From positions 1 to 20,006 of the IMG/VR virus record IMGVR_UViG_3300042992_000954: 20,006 bases of DNA, one strand, 5' to 3'. The position numbers and the translations under genes were made by a program. Source of the DNA: a virus. Below the pieces are notes generated by a model. The model did no database searches. It was not told the origin of the DNA and was given only the letters and a program-made list of their open reading frames with translations. Of this stretch, positions 1 to 7,843 are shown in pieces; within the stretch, counting starts at the first letter, position 1, and every line of letters starts with the position of its first letter.

Positions 1-367
1 TCATTTTGTTGTTCAACGCAAGCCACCCTTTGCCGAACCCAAAGTCCTCAATGGTCTTGATGTTGTCGTTTTCGGCGTCGGCGACTACCTGACGCACGGC
101 CGACTCTTCCAACCAATCAATGGTGTCGATGACGACAGTCTCGAATCCTTGGCGGTCCCGGCAGAGTTCCCGGACGATCTTCTCGAATTCATTCACCGAC
201 TGAGGCTCTAGTCGAGCCACGTCGAGTTGGTGTGTGCCACCCTCAAAGTCGATGAAGACCGGATTTGGCAGTTGGCTGGCAAGCGTCGATTTGCCGAGCC
301 CGGCCGGCGCGTAAATGCAGACCTTTTGGGGGCGGCTGCGTTTCCCTCTCGTGATGTTCAATGCCAT
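1..367 (-). CDS. Sak4-like phage RecA-fold ATPase (partial, C-terminus beyond window)
   Basis: The reading frame opens with ATG at 367 and is still open at base 1, giving 122 visible residues. A Walker A loop (APAGLGKST, residues 20-28) is followed by PNPVFIDFEGGTHQLD (34-49), and then by a Walker B-like strand TVVIDTIDWLE (77-87). This order is typical of the phage AAA_24/Sak4 group, single-strand DNA-stimulated RecA-like ATPases that work with annealing proteins in phage recombination. The gene is the last in the left part of the operon and is separated from its upstream neighbour by about 70 bases holding two small hairpins. The 20 bases before the ATG are A/C-rich and have no Shine-Dalgarno motif. 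The ATPase assignment is firm. The Sak4 role is inferred from family resemblance, and a generic phage AAA protein is the main alternative. Confidence 0.8.
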   Translation of the reverse strand, partial: MALNITRGKRSRPQKVCIYAPAGLGKSTLASQLPNPVFIDFEGGTHQLDVARLEPQSVNEFEKIVRELCRDRQGFETVVIDTIDWLEESAVRQVVADAENDNIKTIEDFGFGKGWLALNNKM

Positions 368-394
368 AGTGTTTGTGTGGTTCTAGGGTTTTGG

Positions 395-436
395 GCACGG
401 TTCCCCCGTGCGGGTGTTTCGGGGCCTGACGCCCCG
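395..436 (-). other. Two short hairpins in intergenic leader of the Sak4-like gene
   Basis: Two perfect 6-bp stems lie between the stop at 441 and the start at 367. One pairs 420-425 with 431-436 (loop CTGAC on the plus strand). The other pairs 395-400 with 406-411. The first begins five bases after the upstream stop. Neither is followed by a T-run on the minus strand, so they look more like RNA-stabilising or processing structures, or weak terminators, than intrinsic terminators. Confidence 0.4.
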
Positions 437-440
437 GAGA

Positions 441-584
441 TCAGATGCGGTCCCGGTTCAGTTCCGCGATGCGCCTGGGCCACTGCGAGCGGCGTGCCAT
501 CCGGCACCTGACGGTAATGATCAGGTGGTAGAGCGACAGTCCGGCAGCGATGCCGGCGAGGAAGTGGAAGAATGGATCGTTCAT
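441..584 (-). CDS. Small membrane-anchored protein, 47 aa, unknown
   Basis: This 47-residue gene starts at ATG 584, which overlaps the stop of the upstream 29-residue gene as ATGA. It begins MNDPFFHFLAGIAAG, with one hydrophobic segment at about residues 5-24. A strongly basic tail follows (RCRMARRSQWPRRIAELNRDRI), the usual arrangement of a helix with its positive end in the cytoplasm. It is the third of three successive tiny membrane genes. No family is recognised. The coupled start and the hydrophobic-then-basic layout support it being real, although its size makes this uncertain. Confidence 0.6.
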   Translation of the reverse strand: MNDPFFHFLAGIAAGLSLYHLIITVRCRMARRSQWPRRIAELNRDRI

Positions 585-670
585 GGGGCAAAAGTGAAGA
601 ATGCCCGGATGAAGAGGGCGAATGCTGCGGTGGCAATGATTGCCAGTAAGACTTCGTGGTGCGGCTTCAT
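581..670 (-). CDS. Tiny membrane peptide, 29 aa, unknown
   Basis: A 29-codon frame (MKPHHEVLLAIIATAAF then ALFIRAFFTFAP) starts at ATG 670 and ends at 581. It shares ATGA with the gene before it and the gene after it. Almost the whole peptide after residue 6 is hydrophobic, so it would form one membrane helix. The support is the unbroken chain of ATGA junctions and the composition. It is too short for family recognition. A small lysis accessory or membrane peptide is possible, but no function can be read from the sequence. Confidence 0.5.
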   Translation of the reverse strand: MKPHHEVLLAIIATAAFALFIRAFFTFAP

Positions 671-783
671 AGGCTGTCGATGGCATCGCCATCGATGAAT
701 GCTGCCACAACGAATAGTGTGGCGGCGATGATGAAAAGGACGGCCGAGACCGCCTTCCTCAGTTTGCGGAAGGCCGACTTCAC
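667..783 (-). CDS. Small single-pass membrane protein, 38 aa, unknown
   Basis: The frame starts with GTG at 783, overlapping the upstream stop as GTGA. A strong GGAGG lies four bases before the start, one of the clearest ribosome sites in the window. The product begins with a basic stretch (KSAFRKLRKAVS), followed by a hydrophobic helix (AVLFIIAATLFVVAAF, about 14-29) and a short acidic tail ending DGDAIDSL. This is the layout of a small membrane protein with its N-terminus in the cytoplasm. It is encoded between the ribbon-helix-helix protein and another tiny membrane gene. Function is unknown. Confidence 0.6.
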   Translation of the reverse strand: MKSAFRKLRKAVSAVLFIIAATLFVVAAFIDGDAIDSL

Positions 784-935
784 GCAGCCTCCTTTCCCTT
801 TCGACGCGCCGAACGGATCGCAGCCTGAATCAGGCTGCGGATGAACGCAGACTTGGAGAGTCCGGCCGCCGCGGCCAAAAGGCCGAGCGCACGACTCTCT
901 TCAGCCGCCAAGTGGGTTCCGATGAATTTCTTCAT
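780..935 (-). CDS. Small ribbon-helix-helix (CopG/Arc-type) protein, 51 aa
   Basis: The 51-residue product starts MKKFIGTHLAAEESRALGLL and continues AAAAGLSKSAFIRSLIQAAIR. It shows one short strand followed by two helices with the G-x-S-x-S/A-x-x-I-R-x-L-I signature at residues 25-36. That is the dimeric ribbon-helix-helix DNA-binding fold of Arc/CopG-type regulators. The C-terminus is basic (RSARRKGKEAA). It stands 77 bases after the endolysin stop, where an AT-rich hairpin lies, so it may begin its own transcription unit. A role as a small phage transcriptional regulator is an inference. A toxin-antitoxin antitoxin is less likely because no toxin gene follows. Confidence 0.65.
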   Translation of the reverse strand: MKKFIGTHLAAEESRALGLLAAAAGLSKSAFIRSLIQAAIRSARRKGKEAA

Positions 936-967
936 GACGCCCGCAATCTGAGCGGACGTCTTTCGGA

Positions 968-1001
968 ACGCAAGAAAAACTTTTTCGTTTTTGCGTTTTT
1001 T
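968..1001 (+). terminator. AT-rich hairpin with T-run reading on plus strand
   Basis: Bases 969-980 (CGCAAGAAAAAC) can pair with 987-995 (GTTTTTGCG) around a TTTTTC loop, with a 3-base bulge, and are followed by a run of T to 1001 on the plus strand. Read on the gene-bearing minus strand the same structure has no clean T-run. It therefore looks like a terminator for antisense transcription, or an imperfect bidirectional one, between the endolysin and the ribbon-helix-helix gene. Confidence 0.4.
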
Positions 1002-1012
1002 CGGTCAGGGCA

Positions 1013-1498
1013 TCAGGCGAGCATCTTCTGGACGTCCATGCCGACAGCCTGGAGGCGTGCCTTTGCGGCAGCGATTGAAGGGATTCCTTCAGTGTACTGA
1101 AAGTGCGGAGTCTCAGTAAAGCTCTTCCAGTACCCGGCCCACTCGATGCCCATTGGCTTCGCCAGTGCTCCCAGTTCCGCATACACCTTGTCGGCGAGCT
1201 TCGGGTTGGCCGAGTCGAGGTACTGGCCGCCTTTGAACAGCCCAAGGTCGATGGCGAGGCCGTAGTTGTGCCAGCTGCTGCCCGGGCGGGCGTTGGTGAC
1301 GACCTTCCCCGGTTTGGTGCGGCCCTGCGCATACAGGGCAGCCTGCTGCTGGTACGACCGCAGGCCGCTGATGACCTCAGCGGTCACCCCGTGCTTCGCG
1401 AGGATCGGCTGGGCTGCGGCAAGAAATGCCTCGAACTTGGCCCGGGCTTTTCGGTTGAGGCCCGCGAGATTCTCCAATGTGCGCTTCGAGTAGTTCAT
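1013..1498 (-). CDS. Endolysin: M15-family (VanY/L-Ala-D-Glu type) peptidase
   Basis: The 161-residue product contains the complete M15 zinc peptidase layout. It has SGLRSYQQQAALYAQGR at 44-60, SSWHNYGLAIDLG at 74-86 (zinc ligands H77 and D84) and the closing TETPHFQY at 128-135 (third ligand H132). E129 stands where many relatives have the catalytic Asp. It would cleave peptide crosslinks or stems of peptidoglycan to release phage. The start is set at ATG 1498 because a GGAG lies five bases upstream. The frame is open further up to 1534, but those residues are the shadow of a duplicated ribosome site. No signal peptide is present, so export through a holin is expected, which fits the membrane gene at 1704-2108. 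Confidence 0.88.
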   Translation of the reverse strand: MNYSKRTLENLAGLNRKARAKFEAFLAAAQPILAKHGVTAEVISGLRSYQQQAALYAQGRTKPGKVVTNARPGSSWHNYGLAIDLGLFKGGQYLDSANPKLADKVYAELGALAKPMGIEWAGYWKSFTETPHFQYTEGIPSIAAAKARLQAVGMDVQKMLA

Positions 1499-1525
1499 GG
1501 GATCTCCTGGTTCATGGGATCTCCT
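1493..1525 (-). repeat. Tandem duplication of ribosome site plus start codon
   Basis: The 16-base sequence AGGAGATCCCATGAAC (minus strand) occurs twice without a mismatch, at 1510-1525 and 1493-1508, with a period of 17. Each copy carries GGAG, a 5-base spacer and ATG. The downstream copy starts the endolysin at 1498. The upstream copy sits at the stop of the 56-residue gene and opens a six-codon minicistron. Confidence 0.9.
1495..1515 (-). CDS. Six-codon minicistron (MNQEIP) ahead of endolysin
   Basis: ATG at 1515 has its own GGAG and reads MNQEIP before TGA at 1495-1497. That stop overlaps the endolysin ATG at 1498 as ATGA. The 56-residue gene in turn stops at 1512, overlapping ATG 1515. 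The minicistron is a direct consequence of the 17-base duplication. Whether it is translated, and whether it tunes endolysin synthesis, is inference. Confidence 0.4.
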   Translation of the reverse strand: MNQEIP

Positions 1526-1682
1526 TTTCGGCATCCGAGATGCCAGCCTTCACACCGCCGTGCACGGCAGCGAAGAACGGAGGGTAGTTTCTGAGCAGCC
1601 AGAGAAGGGCATCCTTGACGGCCTTGCGGGCGAAAGCGCCGGCTGCGGCGATTGACTCAGGTGATGGTGCTGGTGGTGCCAT
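1512..1682 (-). CDS. Small unknown protein, 56 aa, in lysis cassette
   Basis: A 56-codon frame runs from ATG 1682 to TGA at 1512 and fills the gap between the membrane gene and the endolysin. The product begins MAPPAPSPESIAAAGAF. It continues with an amphipathic stretch (RKAVKDALLWLLRNYPPFFAAV, about 19-40) and ends KAGISDAEKEIP. There is no true membrane helix and no recognised family. The 21-base leader is a C/A-rich repeat (ACCCACC and ACCAACC units) without a Shine-Dalgarno site. Its position between holin-like and peptidase genes suggests a lysis accessory protein, but this is unproven. Confidence 0.65.
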   Translation of the reverse strand: MAPPAPSPESIAAAGAFARKAVKDALLWLLRNYPPFFAAVHGGVKAGISDAEKEIP

Positions 1683-1703
1683 GGTGGTTGGTTGGTGGGT
1701 GGG

Positions 1704-2108
1704 TTACTTTTTGAAGCGGTCGATGAAGTCGCGGAGGCGGTCGTTGAGCCGATTGATGACGAACCATCCGTTCATCCCCATGATGAACCCGCAGAATGCC
1801 CACGTCTGCCAGAGCATCCAAACCTGCGCTTCCGGCTCGATGATCTGCATGTAGGCGAACGTGTGGAACAGGATGCCCGGAGCGAACGCGCCGATGACTG
1901 CAGAGCCGAGGAAGTTTGATGCCACTTGGAAGTGGTCTCGCTTTTTCTGCATGGCATCCATCACCGCAAGAATGGACGCGATCACCGCCCCGATGACTGC
2001 ATAAATGTCATCCGTTGCCGGACCCTTCACGGCTGCAATCGCCACCGTCGGAAGGCTCATGGCTGCGATCAGTGGGAGGAGGAGGCTGAGAGATGTTCCG
2101 GCGGGCAT
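1704..2108 (-). CDS. Multi-pass membrane protein, holin candidate
   Basis: The 134-residue product is strongly hydrophobic, with segments at about 7-27, 35-53, 62-86 and 96-118. A charged loop (DAMQKKRDHFQ) follows the second segment, and the basic C-terminus ends RLNDRLRDFIDRFKK. The first segment ends in an alanine-rich stretch (VAIAAVKG) that could also be a signal sequence. Size, helices, charged tail and location between a lipoprotein and an M15 endolysin without its own export signal fit a phage holin. The sequence does not match a holin class I can name. It starts three bases after the lipoprotein stop, so translation is probably coupled. An inner-membrane protein of other function remains possible. 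Confidence 0.6.
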   Translation of the reverse strand: MPAGTSLSLLLPLIAAMSLPTVAIAAVKGPATDDIYAVIGAVIASILAVMDAMQKKRDHFQVASNFLGSAVIGAFAPGILFHTFAYMQIIEPEAQVWMLWQTWAFCGFIMGMNGWFVINRLNDRLRDFIDRFKK

Positions 2109-2111
2109 TGA

Positions 2112-2294
2112 TTACTTCTGGTTGATGGGTTGCGGACGGCCGTGGCTGTCGACGAGGATGGATGTCATGCCGTCAGCGTACCGGACGGAGACGGGCACAC
2201 CGCCGACGTCGCCCCGGTATTCAATGTTGAGGCCGGCGGTGGTGGCGCAACTGGTCAGCGCTGCAATGGATGCGAGGAGGAGGATGCGGATCAT
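2112..2294 (-). CDS. Small phage lipoprotein, 60 aa
   Basis: The product opens MIRILLLASIAALTSCATTAG: a short basic start, a hydrophobic core and a lipobox (LTSC, Cys16). Signal peptidase II processing and lipid attachment at Cys16 are therefore expected, leaving about 45 residues outside the cytoplasm. The mature part (GDVGGVPVSVRYADGMTSI) looks like a small beta-rich domain and is not proline-rich, unlike classical Rz1 outer spanins. It starts by ATGA overlap with the upstream gene and is followed directly by the holin candidate. It could be a spanin component or a superinfection-type surface protein. The lipoprotein call is firm, the role is not. Confidence 0.75.
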   Translation of the reverse strand: MIRILLLASIAALTSCATTAGLNIEYRGDVGGVPVSVRYADGMTSILVDSHGRPQPINQK

Positions 2295-2671
2295 GACTGG
2301 AGTCCGGGTGGGTGGAGGATCTCGTTGGCCCGCTGCTCAGTAAGCAGGCCAGACTGGATGAGTGCATGGAATCCAGCTTGGACTCTGGGATCATCACTCC
2401 ACATCTCAGCCTGCCACACAGAGAGCGAGACAACCAAGGCCCGGACAGCAGGAATCTCCGAGATGCTGATATCCACCTGTTCCTGCTGCGAGAATTCCGC
2501 CCAGAAATCAGCAGCAGTTTGCCAGACTCGACGGATTGGAGGCGGAGGCGGAGGCGGTTCTGGCTCCGGTGGCATTCCCACCCAGCCTCCATACGTCGTC
2601 ATGTGCGCGATGCGCTCGGCATCGGTTTCCTCGATGATTTGATCCGGGTATTGAGGGTGGGTGAATTTCAT
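2291..2671 (-). CDS. Small fibre-associated phage protein, 126 aa, unknown
   Basis: The start is taken at ATG 2671, overlapping the upstream stop as ATGA. A TTG two codons earlier is also in frame. The N-terminal 30 residues ([20 protein letters not shown]) precede a proline run (MPPEPEPPPPPPP, encoded by GGAGGC-type triplet repeats near 2538-2556). An alpha-helical domain follows (WAEFSQQEQVDIS, then VWQAEMWSDDPRVQAGF and SGLLTEQRANEIL). Small proteins with this helical layout often follow tail fibre genes in phages, where assembly roles have been suggested. No domain name can be given. Its position after the lectin-like gene supports a tail or adsorption accessory. Confidence 0.65.
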   Translation of the reverse strand: MKFTHPQYPDQIIEETDAERIAHMTTYGGWVGMPPEPEPPPPPPPIRRVWQTAADFWAEFSQQEQVDISISEIPAVRALVVSLSVWQAEMWSDDPRVQAGFHALIQSGLLTEQRANEILHPPGLQS

Positions 2672-3468
2672 TCGCAAGTGATCTTGAAAGCTGCGGCGAG
2701 CGCGTGGTCGATTCTCCGTTGCATCGACGAAGACAGGGAGTGGTTGGGGAACATGATTACAGCTCCCATCAGGCCGACAAATTGGACGGTCGGAATATCA
2801 GCTGCGGCCGAGCCAATAAACATGTCAAAGGACGCATTACTGGTCGTTGGGGGATCGGTAGCTGTATTCCCGCCAACAGCATCCGCTCCTGAATTGCGGA
2901 ACATGAGCCTGTCGGCGGCGGCAGCGTCGGCATCAAATGCAGTGCGATTGATTCGCCACGAGTTCCCCGGCCAGAAATTATTTGCCGCGACCACAGCGGC
3001 GAAGAATTGGTTCACCCCTCGCGCTATAGATCCCCTGAGAGTATTCGATGCGGACGCTGATGCCCGATTATCCCAGAAAACCGTTACGCCCACCTGGGCT
3101 GAACTAGTCCGATTGTTCCCCCACATGACATACGCAGCTTCCGGAGCCGGGGCAGCCGGAGTGGCGGGCCTGGCAGCAGTAAAAACGAGTGATGGAGAGC
3201 CGTTGTGCAGGCCGTTAAAAAGGGCCGTGCTGGATGGGATCTGGTAAAACCTTGCTCCATCGAATGACAGACACCGCTGCCCGCTTTCGCCGATGGCAAC
3301 AGTGGCTCTGGCTGCGGAGTTTGACTGCGTCGGATTCCTTGCCAGCCCAGATCGATCCGGCCAAGTCTGAACCGGGCTGCCAACCGCTTCTGTAAGGACA
3401 CGCGAGTCAAGTTGCAGCGCGGCACCGGGCAACGGGCGGAGCGTTAGATGTCTCTGTCGGCGGCTCAT
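2668..3468 (-). CDS. Lectin-like (LamG/ConA-fold) virion protein, probable receptor binding
   Basis: The 266-residue protein has the usual order of a laminin-G/concanavalin-like jelly roll. It begins with a core LQLDSRV...VQTWPDRSG (about 18-41), then [14 protein letters not shown] (66-79) and SLVFTAARP (92-100). It closes with [27 protein letters not shown], like the final strand and helix of this family. Such domains bind carbohydrates and often form phage adsorption proteins. It overlaps the fibre-fusion gene by ATGA. Hand counts gave 32/60 G+C at 3001-3060 and 33/60 at 2761-2820, against 40/60 at 9301-9360 in the portal, in keeping with a recently exchanged host-range gene. Catalytic glycanase residues were not seen, so binding is more likely than cleavage. 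Confidence 0.7.
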
Positions 3469-5888
3469 ACTGGGGCGGCTCGCAGCTGGATCATCTGCAC
3501 CCAGACAGTCTGGGAGAGGGGGGTTGTCTCGCTCAGGCCGATCCTGCCAATGCGGATCTGCGTCGGCGCACCGTCAACGACGGACCCTCCGGGAGTTACT
3601 GTCGCAGACCAGTCGGAAACCATGACCTGCTGCGCCGTACCGCTGGCCGAGTCGGTGACGTCTACAGCTGTCCCGGCGGCCCCAGTTTCCGCAGACGAGT
3701 CAGCGAAGCATCTGGCCTCGGATCTGAACAGGACATTCCCTGTCGTCCCAGTGGAGCGCCAGACTACACGATACTGATACCCCGCCCATCCGGTCGGCCA
3801 GCCGATTTCAAGTTCGGCGTATCGGTTGGCAGAAAGTGGGAAGGTTAGGAAATCCCGGTTCCATCCGTTTTCGAGCGAGTCCACTCCGGCTCCATTAGTC
3901 GTCGCCGGAATCAACTGAGACGCCCTGTACGTCTGGATTGGGTCGCCTCCTCCACCTCCGCCTGCGCCACCCGGTGGGACTGCCCATGTGCCATCCGAAC
4001 GCAAGAAGTTCGTGGTGCCAGCGGGGGCCTGTGGAACCAGACCTTTAGCCGATGTGCTGAAGAGGTTCAGCATTGCCGTGACCTGCGCGGCAGTCAGGTC
4101 TGATGGTGCCGCCGACGAGCCGGTGTTGTTTCCTTTGATTGTATTGGCGGCCATAGCCGCCATCAGTGAGTTGGTGACCGTTGACTGGGTGGCAAGATTT
4201 CCAAGCGCGAGCGCCACTCTGGCATCCGCCGGGGATCGCCAGACTGCATTTCCCATGTCATCAGAGACGACCATCCAGTCCTCTGCGGGTATGCCTGCGA
4301 CGTAGAGGGCTTGGTTGTTGGAGTTGACCCACACGCCGTTGAGACTGTCGTAGGTCAGCAGCTGCCCTTCCTGCGGAGAGGAAATCACGACATCGTGCAG
4401 CTCTTCAAGCTCGTAGCCGTTGTCGATTTTGATGAGGATCATCCCAACCGTGGACGAAACCCGCTCGACCCAGCCGATGCGAACGGCGTGGGCTGGAGCG
4501 GCTGGGGGCGTCTGCGTGATCTGCCCAGCGGTTTCGGACAGGTAGAGCAATGCGCCGGCCGTGAATGATGCGGTGTTGAGGTTCCGCATTGGGCCTGCCC
4601 GCTGCACCAGCCCGGTGGCTCCGGCTGCGATGGTGTGCGCCACCAGTCCAATGGTTCCGGCGCTGGTGGCCTCTGTGCTGGCGTCTGCGAGTTTGACGGC
4701 GGTGCGGTTGCCCTGGGCTCCGGAGACGTAGACGGGTTGGCCTTTGGTGAGCGTGGTCCCGCTGTCATTGTAGACGCGCGTGAACTCCTGCATGGGGATT
4801 TCCGCAGTCAGTCCATTCAGCCCCACGGCAAGCGCGGTTTCGTCGGGATCGTACCGAATGACGCCGTTGGAAATTGCGAGCGTCGATGAGGTTGAAAGCG
4901 TGATGGAATCGACGCCAATGTTTCCGGCGTCACTCACTGTGACGGCGCTGCCCTTGAGTAGTTTCCCGGTGATTCCAGAAAAGCGCGGCAGTGTGTTGTT
5001 TACGCTGGAGGATGGGCCAACCACGTCCCCGCTTCCAGGCACGCCGCCACCCGGTGCGCTCCAGGTGGGAACGCCAGCCACCAGCGCCAGCACGTAGGTG
5101 TCGGCGGCTGTTCCGGCAAAGCGGGCCGCAGGGAAGGTGCCAGTCGTGATCTGGTCGGCGCTGTGCGTGTGGGACACGGCGGCCTTTCCGGCAAGCGCAG
5201 CCACAAGGTCGGCTTGGTCTGCCAGCGTTCCGCCGATGCTTCCCCATGTGGCGGTTCCTCCCGGCGTCGTGCCTCCGGATCCTCCTCCGCAGTACCATGC
5301 GGACATGCGCCCCTCGCGCTCCTCGAGGATCTCGGATTGATCCAGCCGGGTGACGCGGGGCTGGCTCTCCACGGCGTCGGCCTCGCGGGCCTGCTCGCGG
5401 ATGGCGGCGGCCATCTGCTCCATTTGCTGGCCAGCCTGCGGGTCGAGTCGGAGGCTGGGCGCGATTGCTGCGGCGAGCCTGTAGGCGAAGTAGGAACAGA
5501 AGACACTGTCCCAATCGGTCACGTCAATGGCGTCGGCCACGTACCGCACCCGGCATTCGGCGGAGTTGGTCAGGATGCTGCGGCCCTCTACAGCGTAATC
5601 GGTCAGCCGGGTGCCGCCGGGGCGCTGGTTGACGCTCAGAACCCGCAGGCAGTCTTCCGGGAGTGGGTACGCATAACCCCAATCAAAAGGGGGCGCGGCC
5701 TCTGCGGCGGTCAGGAGGGCGCGGCGAATGGCAAAGTTCCAATCGTAGTCCCGCAAGCACAGCCGGCGCGTGTGGTCGAATGCCCGCCTGCAATGCTCCG
5801 CCGCCGGGGACCGCTCGGAGTAGTCGGAGATTCTGGCCTGCCCAAGGTGGGCCAGCGCCATGTTGCAGAGTTCGGTGGGCGTCGTCAT
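3465..5888 (-). CDS. Fusion: tail tubular protein A (gp11-like adaptor) + fibre-like polypeptide
   Basis: Residues 1 to about 192 match the gp11 tail-adaptor family: [20 protein letters not shown], then [18 protein letters not shown] (36-53), a [16 protein letters not shown] core (69-84) and a C-terminal helix (about 152-192). T7 gp11 is about this long, but here the frame continues for 615 more residues. After M195 come a Gly-rich linker, [14 protein letters not shown] (240-253) as in phage fibres, beta-rich repeats (about 290-490), the fibre-type [22 protein letters not shown] (582-603), [14 protein letters not shown], a GGAGGGGGG hinge (640-648) and a C-terminal beta domain. The product would join the portal ring to an outward fibre. 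ATG 195 (base 5306) has GAGGGG just upstream and could give a separate fibre product. A terminator stands directly before the start. Confidence 0.8.
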
Positions 5889-5894
5889 GCGGGA

Positions 5895-5937
5895 AAAAAG
5901 GGCAGGGTGCCCCGCTGGTCAAACGGGGCACCCTGCT
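5895..5937 (-). terminator. Strong intrinsic terminator between head and tail genes
   Basis: On the minus strand a perfect 13-bp stem (925-937 with 903-915 of the 5000s; GCAGGGTGCCCCG arm) with a 9-base loop is followed by CC and six T (5895-5900). It begins four bases after the stop of the 155-residue gene and ends six bases before the ATG of the tail-fibre fusion gene. Confidence 0.93.
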
Positions 5938-6443: not shown

Positions 6444-7388
6444 TCAGACGGTTTCCGTGCAGGCAATGAGCTGGACGCCGGGGTCCAGCGAACGCATGGC
6501 ACCGAATGCCATCTGGCTGAGGAACTGGATGGCATTCCGCTTCATCGGAAGGCGGTCGATGGTCAGGCTCTGGATGATCGGGCTGACCTTGAAGGCGCGT
6601 CGGGTGAACGCCACACACGTCCGGGTGGTCGAGGCGGACACGTAGGGCAGGCGGTTGGTCATGATGACGTTGTATCCCATGAGCTTGGATGGCGTCCCCA
6701 TGCTGTCTGCCTTGAGCCAATTCCCGATGATCTCGGCCCAGTAGTCGTTCGTGGCATTGGCCACGTAGGCGGCCAGTTCGTACTTCTGCTTGGGCGAAAT
6801 CGCGAGGTAGCACTCTTCCTGCGTCGGGTCGATCTCGGCCTTTTCCAGGCGGATGGTGGCCTCAAGGATCTTCCACGGCGTAAGCGGGTAGTTCCCTGCG
6901 GTCTGGCCGGGTCCGACAAAGCTCACCGCAATCTGGCTGGTGGCTGGAAGCGGGATGGCCGTGGTGTACGGGTCCGCTCCGCCCACCGCATCGGCAATGG
7001 CGGCGGCAATGAACACGTCGTCGAGCTGGCGGTTGGCGGCAGCCTTCATTGTGCTGATGACATCGCCGTCAGGGATTGCTTGCCGTTCAAGCCATTGGTT
7101 GTCCCATTTGTCACGCACGACAGGGATGTCGAAGTTGCGCATGGAACCACGTCGCGCACCGCCGGAAATCTCCTGCGGGTTGGTGTCACCGAATCGCTGG
7201 CCAGTGGTTTCCCGGGCGAGGACGACATCGAGGTCTTGCCAGATGTAATCCTTGGCGGTCCAGTCGGCGGCGGTCATGCCGGCGTTGGCGAATTTCTGAT
7301 TCTGCTGCTGGAGAACCATGTCCCAGCTTGTGGAGAACTGTCTCTTGAAATGAGCCGGGATGTCCAGGCTCGCGGAATAATCGGACAT
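6444..7388 (-). CDS. Major capsid protein
   Basis: The 314-residue protein has the phage capsid-protein layout. The N-terminus is helical (SLDIPAHFKRQFSTSWDMVLQQQNQKF), followed by GQRFGDTNP (63-71) and NFDIPVVRDKWDNQWLERQAIPDGD (about 84-108). A helix AANRQLDDVFIAAAIADA follows, as found in podovirus coat proteins. After this come NDYWAEIIGNWLKADSMGTPSKLMGYNVIMTNRLP and a C-terminal strand with MKRNAIQFLSQMAFGAMRSLDPGV. It would form the icosahedral shell on the scaffold encoded just upstream. The long non-coding region before it and the lack of a Shine-Dalgarno site (pyrimidine-rich CACCTCCTCCACTTCTC, then AATACA before the ATG) suggest separately controlled expression. Confidence 0.88.
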   Translation of the reverse strand: MSDYSASLDIPAHFKRQFSTSWDMVLQQQNQKFANAGMTAADWTAKDYIWQDLDVVLARETTGQRFGDTNPQEISGGARRGSMRNFDIPVVRDKWDNQWLERQAIPDGDVISTMKAAANRQLDDVFIAAAIADAVGGADPYTTAIPLPATSQIAVSFVGPGQTAGNYPLTPWKILEATIRLEKAEIDPTQEECYLAISPKQKYELAAYVANATNDYWAEIIGNWLKADSMGTPSKLMGYNVIMTNRLPYVSASTTRTCVAFTRRAFKVSPIIQSLTIDRLPMKRNAIQFLSQMAFGAMRSLDPGVQLIACTETV

Positions 7389-7639: not shown

Positions 7640-7843
7640 GAGTTTTGCGCAGTGTTCAAAGAAGGGGAAGACTGACCCTGTCCGGAGCCATCCTCCGGCT
7701 CTATGCCTGCACGGCGTCCAGTATGCGCAGCCCGCGTGTGGTCAAGAAAGAACCCCGCCCTGTTTCCAAGGCGGGGCCGGCAGTGTTCACCAAGGTCGAA
7801 CTCACAAACCGCTCCGGAGCCATCCTCCGGCTGCTATGCCTGC
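7635..7843 (-). repeat. Duplicated dyad-containing module in scaffold-capsid gap
   Basis: Two copies of a 30-base element carrying the dyad CCGGAG-GATGG-CTCCGG lie at 7813-7843 and 7681-7710, differing by one inserted base. In both, 22 or 23 bases later (minus direction), comes the identical TGAACACTGC (7780-7789 and 7649-7658). After that comes TCTTGAC (7741-7747 and 7635-7641). The first unit has an extra CCCCGCC/GGCGGGG hairpin between the last two boxes. The ordered, nearly equally spaced boxes indicate duplication of a regulatory unit. Confidence 0.75.
7753..7776 (-). terminator. Weaker terminator-like hairpin after scaffold gene
   Basis: A perfect 7-bp GC stem (7753-7759 with 7770-7776, 10-base loop) is followed on the minus strand by TTCTTTCTT. 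It is about 70 bases after the scaffold stop and would lower transcription past the scaffold. The T-run is broken, so it is less certain than the one at 7535-7576. Confidence 0.5.

Follow-up and report, generated by a model that had tools for sequence, protein, structure and literature searches.

Organization of the fused gene and its neighbourhood

The window analyzed here, a viral contig of 20,006 bases, carries on its minus strand an open reading frame (5888 to 3465) that begins with ATG and encodes a protein of 807 amino acids. The initial annotation gave this frame correctly as open and 807 residues long, but left its strand unsaid. Residues 1 to 192 (5313..5888, as with all features below on the minus strand) form a complete head-tail adaptor domain of the gp11/TTPA type that starts at the ATG of the gene. 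The translation also bears out the 615 residues described in that annotation as continuing in frame into a fibre-like sequence. These comprise a linker and fibre-like body (residues 196 to 640; 3969..5303), recognized by homology to tail-fibre-like ORFs with other N-terminal anchors and by purifying selection, a Gly-rich hinge (3945..3980), and a tip domain (residues 649 to 807 and the stop codon; 3465..3944). Within the body, residues 365 to 490 (4419..4796) form a predicted beta barrel of the capsid-cement or head-fibre-base type. The stop codon of the fusion overlaps the start of the next gene (2668..3468) in the sequence ATGA; this gene encodes a 266-amino acid protein matching a virion structural protein family (phrog_10356, E 3.3e-12).

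An intrinsic terminator precedes the fused gene at 5902..5936, with a 15-bp stem and a T6 tail (dG -32.7 kcal/mol, z -5.3), and its T-run stops only a few bases short of the ATG. The related contig L007 has a counterpart of this hairpin at the same position, differing in bases of the stem, and this terminator may keep expression of the adaptor below that of the capsid protein. A second strong terminator-like hairpin lies at 7751..7778 (minus strand), between a scaffold-like gene and the capsid gene.

The wider gene order is best seen in the 41-kb relative G003, where the capsid gene is followed by a gene for a 155-amino acid protein, the fusion, a gene for a 132-amino acid protein, the nozzle gene (756 amino acids; phrog_376, 2.5e-168), an acetyltransferase-like gene, and genes for proteins of 678 and 3041 amino acids. 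A single small gene separates the fusion from the nozzle gene, whose position is much like that after the adaptor in ordinary podophages. The fusion lies between the capsid and nozzle genes in G003, G001, G005 and G007; no nozzle gene was found in the window, the left part of which is foreign. Further on, G003 also encodes a separate fibre-type protein, in which a tail-fibre-type N-terminus (phrog_1640, 1.9e-12) is combined with a phosphoesterase domain.

Adaptor domain and fibre-like body

The phrog_394 (tail protein) profile matches residues 1 to 192 with an E-value of 2.2e-55, covering positions 1 to 189 of its 190, and phmmer retrieved the solved adaptor 8ck1_E (2e-9). An AlphaFold2 model built from a 48-row alignment is confident only at about residues 1 to 170, where pLDDT is mostly above 90, and 365 to 490. 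Residues 1 to 191 of this model show the adaptor fold, a helical bundle with a beta insert, and superpose by VIA-align on the Carin-1 connector (8ck1_E; Z 20.4, rmsd 2.9, 189 residues aligned), T7 gp11 (7box/6r21; Z 12.4-12.8) and KP32 TTPA (Z 12.6). The full-length profile match and these superpositions confirm the domain as a complete gp11-type adaptor, as first proposed. The domain belongs to PHROG 394, and the protein as a whole is a fusion rather than a stand-alone adaptor of about 190 to 220 residues. By fold and family, the N-terminal 192 residues are expected to form a 12-subunit ring under the portal. Pfam and PHROG scans detected no N-terminal anchor domain like that of T7 gp17-type fibres, the N-terminus being the adaptor itself.

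The linker at residues 176 to 222 is of low confidence in the model and is probably flexible, and most of the fibre region is likewise poorly modelled apart from the block at 365 to 490 (pLDDT 83-94). This block resembles capsid cement or decoration folds (8qsy_JJ, Z 12.1; 8saj, Z 10.3; VIA-align) and, more weakly, phi29 gp12, a tail protein, and the base of the phi29 head fibre gp8.5 (Z 7-8; 7.4 for the gp8.5 base); homologues also match PF09956 (Phage_cement_2), weakly. Matches to the viral structure library fall mostly over poorly modelled fibre bodies, and carry little weight beyond this shared module. The module is common to ORFs of about forty other viral contigs, where it stands behind other N-termini, including MANTIKxKRSS-type sequences and Mtd_N, and proteins with homologous bodies carry fibre features (Mtd_N, Peptidase_S74). 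In zth2-2, a version of the module is encoded between the portal and capsid genes. The phi29 gp8.5 base and PF09956-type cement proteins share the fold but are capsid-bound, whereas here the module is part of the adaptor chain. Cement-type modules are trimeric in known relatives, and for the up to twelve fibres proposed in the initial annotation both four trimers and twelve single arms on the ring are possible.

Conservation, mosaicism and parallels in cultured phages

The open fusion recurs in eight further contigs (L002 to L009) at identities down to 56%, the carriers forming a small group of short-tailed freshwater (lake) phages. The fused proteins of these relatives have 884 to 985 amino acids, against 807 in the window: those of L002 to L004 have 985, that of L008 has 884 (56% identity), and L005, L006, L007 (68% identity) and L009 carry the fusion too. 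In L006 the fused ORF is frameshifted near residue 398 (around 5262 of L006), away from the domain border, probably through an assembly or sequencing error. The dN/dS of the adaptor is 0.03-0.08 (0.03 against L004 and 0.08 against L007), and that of the fibre body is 0.11-0.19 for close relatives (L004) and 0.16-0.56 for distant ones (0.16-0.38 for L007); these values indicate purifying selection on both halves. A sequencing frameshift or stop loss as the source of the fusion is ruled out by this selection and by the same open frame in the eight contigs. The initial annotation had named an artefact near 5306 as the possible flaw in its reading and a search for relatives with the same fusion as the check; the search found them.

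In the other clades surveyed the adaptor is a shorter protein. Searches with three narrow profiles collected 253 adaptor ORFs whose 3′ end is complete; they represent 171 distinct domains and come mostly from viral contigs of IMG/VR. Of these ORFs, 238 end no more than 40 amino acids past the domain, and the other 15 are copies from this clade; nearly all those outside the clade end within 20 residues. A long C-terminal extension is thus confined to this clade among the 253 ORFs, in agreement with the earlier statement that adaptor and fibre are normally separate genes. Most of the annotated phages compared likewise encode the adaptor on its own, the next gene being of nozzle size. A close-relative search found no adaptor relatives in genome contigs. 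Two database entries met in this comparison stand apart. The podophage adaptor of MW202478.1 (L318:241-2196) carries a 420-residue N-terminal extension, with phrog_394 at residues 421 to 636 of 652, and is a fusion on the opposite side. Limnohabitans phage DC33 (PQ492659.1) is filed under Inoviridae, which looks wrong; its 39-kb genome has a podophage adaptor gene and, after it, one of nozzle size.

Each record of a fused relative, including G003, contains exactly one phrog_394 match, and the phrog_394 scan found no separate adaptor gene elsewhere in G003 or the other relatives' records, suggesting that the fused chain itself probably serves as the adaptor. If G003 is near complete, as its size suggests, the fused chain would be its sole adaptor, with a second fibre beside it.

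Three unrelated tips occur on these proteins: Gly_rich_2 in L002 (8.5e-12), a phrog_15388-type tip in L008, and another, perhaps foreign, in the window protein, which has no Gly_rich_2 match. Compared with the window protein, L008 differs little in the adaptor (dS 0.57) but much more in the fibre part (dS above 1), which indicates exchange of fibres with retention of the fusion. The 159-residue window tip is absent from the fused relatives and is 95% identical to the tip of a collagen-like fibre (L011, residues 415 to 573) in G009, a temperate-phage-like record that encodes an integrase and whose capsid gene is different. The 266-amino acid downstream protein travels with this tip, its only relative found in viral contigs being that of G009 (90%). 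At positions above 3967, the window DNA is about 93-94% identical to the podophage relatives G001 and G003; between 3968 and 2099 its sole match is G009, at 86%, the switch falling in a GGN-rich repeat within the hinge (junction 3967/3968). These matches indicate another, G009-like phage lineage as the source of the approximately 160 C-terminal residues and of the whole window left of 3967, and residues from about 645 to 807 may not belong to this phage. The in-frame fibre body described at the outset stands, but the annotation missed that its C-terminal 160 or so residues are foreign to the clade. The domain border at 5306 is far from the junction and unaffected.

Whether positions 1 to 3967 joined this phage by assembly or by recombination bears on the window copy only. 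The assembly may have joined this phage to a temperate phage like G009, in which case the true C-terminus would differ, and such a chimera is somewhat more likely: the best match switches sharply within the repeat, the window lacks the nozzle and ejection genes located downstream of the fusion in G003, G+C is 59.5% in the left part against 62-64%, the podophage relatives showed nothing corresponding to the window endolysin and Sak4, and a search for the exact junction in viral contigs, a set from which near-identical records may be missing, returned no second contig. Recombinational exchange of the tip would, however, look identical, and G009, at only 86% identity, is not the donor itself. Several unrelated phages carry relatives of the endolysin, which is compatible with either origin, and tetranucleotide comparison of the two sides is weakly informative.

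A parallel in cultured phages, missed by the initial annotation although the fusion it reported is real, is found in the Vibrio phage VP2 group. VP2p14 of phage VP2 (741 amino acids) and its K300 counterpart (750 amino acids) are phrog_394 adaptors (4e-43 and 4e-44) continuing into three Ig-like domains and a Gly_rich_2 tip, an arrangement common to 38 Vibrio records at 50-100% identity. These proteins, classed with that of phiVC8 as 'tail tubular protein' in PHROG 9239, share with the window protein an N-terminal phrog_394 domain and a long C-terminal extension, with L002 the Gly_rich_2 tip, and with the fused relatives a following tail gene and a separate tail fibre gene elsewhere. They differ in having an Ig-like shaft where the lake phages have the cement-type module, in an adaptor only about 28-29% identical, and in their marine and cholera hosts; no Ig-like match follows the adaptor in the window protein, L002 or L008. 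According to the available text of the OVC8 study, the 74.1 kDa ORF14 protein, the 741-residue fusion product, is among the four main virion proteins detected by mass spectrometry, OVC8 and phiVC8 share genome length and ORF14 start, and what is recorded for ORF14 is an Ig domain, not an adaptor (PMC4802629). Other records of the Vibrio fusion (L322 among them) are annotated as 'PE family protein', 'major tail subunit' or 'hypothetical protein', and the start is shortened in JSF9.

Better-known adaptors are organized differently. T7 gp11, KP32 TTPA and the Carin-1 connector share the fold (Z 12-20) and the order capsid, adaptor, nozzle, but end at about 190 to 220 amino acids, their fibres being separate proteins. 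The head-tail adaptor gp83 of Pseudomonas phage DEV also has an extra domain, in this case a lectin-like stretch of 101 residues inserted into the helical bundle, and the DEV fibres (gp53) form a separate collar around the adaptor (PMC10925440). None of the papers found by searching the open-access literature treats a fusion of adaptor and fibre as such.

Probable function of the appendage

The protein probably forms the head-tail adaptor ring of a short-tailed phage while bearing a covalent, fibre-like appendage with an exchangeable tip. The N-terminal 192 residues would assemble into the usual 12-subunit ring under the portal, from which the chain would exit through the flexible linker into a shaft module of the cement-type beta-barrel kind and end in the exchangeable tip. 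The appendage would project from the neck or tail, its tip probably binding host surface sugars or proteins, and covalent fusion to the adaptor would replace the usual non-covalent fibre anchor. The direct continuation of the adaptor domain into the fibre-like body supports the original proposal that the appendage is anchored to the adaptor ring of the portal, and the fibre-type domains and variable tip are those by which a tail fibre or receptor-binding protein is recognized. Several observations count against this assignment: the separate fibre-type protein of G003 may also be a receptor binder, trimeric fibre modules do not fit the symmetry of a twelve-fold ring unless further arranged, most of the fibre region outside residues 365 to 490 is modelled with low confidence, and the cement-type module could bind the capsid rather than the host. 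A chimeric origin of the window copy is compatible with the proposed function.

Binding of the module to the capsid underlies the main alternative, that the extension reinforces the neck or collar, its cement-type module binding the capsid vertex and tying the ring to the head. Such a role would suit the likeness of the module to cement and decoration proteins and the phi29 head-fibre base, the weak PF09956 matches of homologues and the gene position in zth2-2, yet it appears unlikely given the many ORFs with fibre features in which the module sits, the occurrence of its fold in phi29 gp12, a tail protein, and the differences between tips of close relatives, as in receptor binders. It is very improbable that the chain is cleaved after assembly, or is a neutral read-through fusion, to give two separate virion proteins; the low-confidence, probably flexible linker would allow it, but the frame has stayed open over deep divergence under purifying selection, and the Vibrio counterpart is reported from virions at its full predicted mass (PMC4802629).

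Equally improbable is the suggestion, made in the initial annotation, that one gene yields both a fused and a free fibre through an internal start. The in-frame ATG at residue 195 (5304..5306), with GAGGAGCGCGAGGGGCGC upstream, is indeed present at the domain border, where its GAGGGG provides the best Shine-Dalgarno duplex of the in-frame starts (-8.1 kcal/mol), and it is identical in L002, L004, L005 and L006. In L007, however, the codon is TGG (Trp), and in L008 and L009 the start is displaced by one codon (ACC ATG) behind a weaker purine tract; the purines are sufficiently explained by the conserved Glu/Arg codons of EEREGR; the phage's own start codons mostly lack a Shine-Dalgarno sequence; and a free fibre would have no known anchor. 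Use of this ATG as a start is therefore not supported, and it is possibly a relic of an old fibre start. The minus-strand starts at 7388, 6409, 5888 and 17119 lack a Shine-Dalgarno sequence, some with pyrimidine-rich leaders, and such starts may hint at a host that makes little use of this signal.

Adaptors are usually viewed as a conserved piece of plumbing, and fibres as parts of their own that dock without covalent bonds; the fused chain is both. Genes combining an adaptor with an extension already exist in cultured Vibrio phages, apparently unremarked and apparently as an independent parallel. It is tentatively suggested, at slightly less than even confidence, that a covalent receptor-binding arm on the adaptor arose at least twice, in lake podophages, whose shaft is of the cement type, and in Vibrio phages, whose shaft is made of Ig-like domains, with convergence on a Gly-rich tip. 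If so, these phages would display, beside their ordinary fibres, an unrecognized second and permanently anchored set of up to twelve neck arms. The fusion illustrates how new appendages can evolve by a simple route, their position and copy number being tied to the ring, and predicts that in common cholera phages, those of the phiVC8 group, the 'tail tubular protein' genes encode unrecognized neck appendages.
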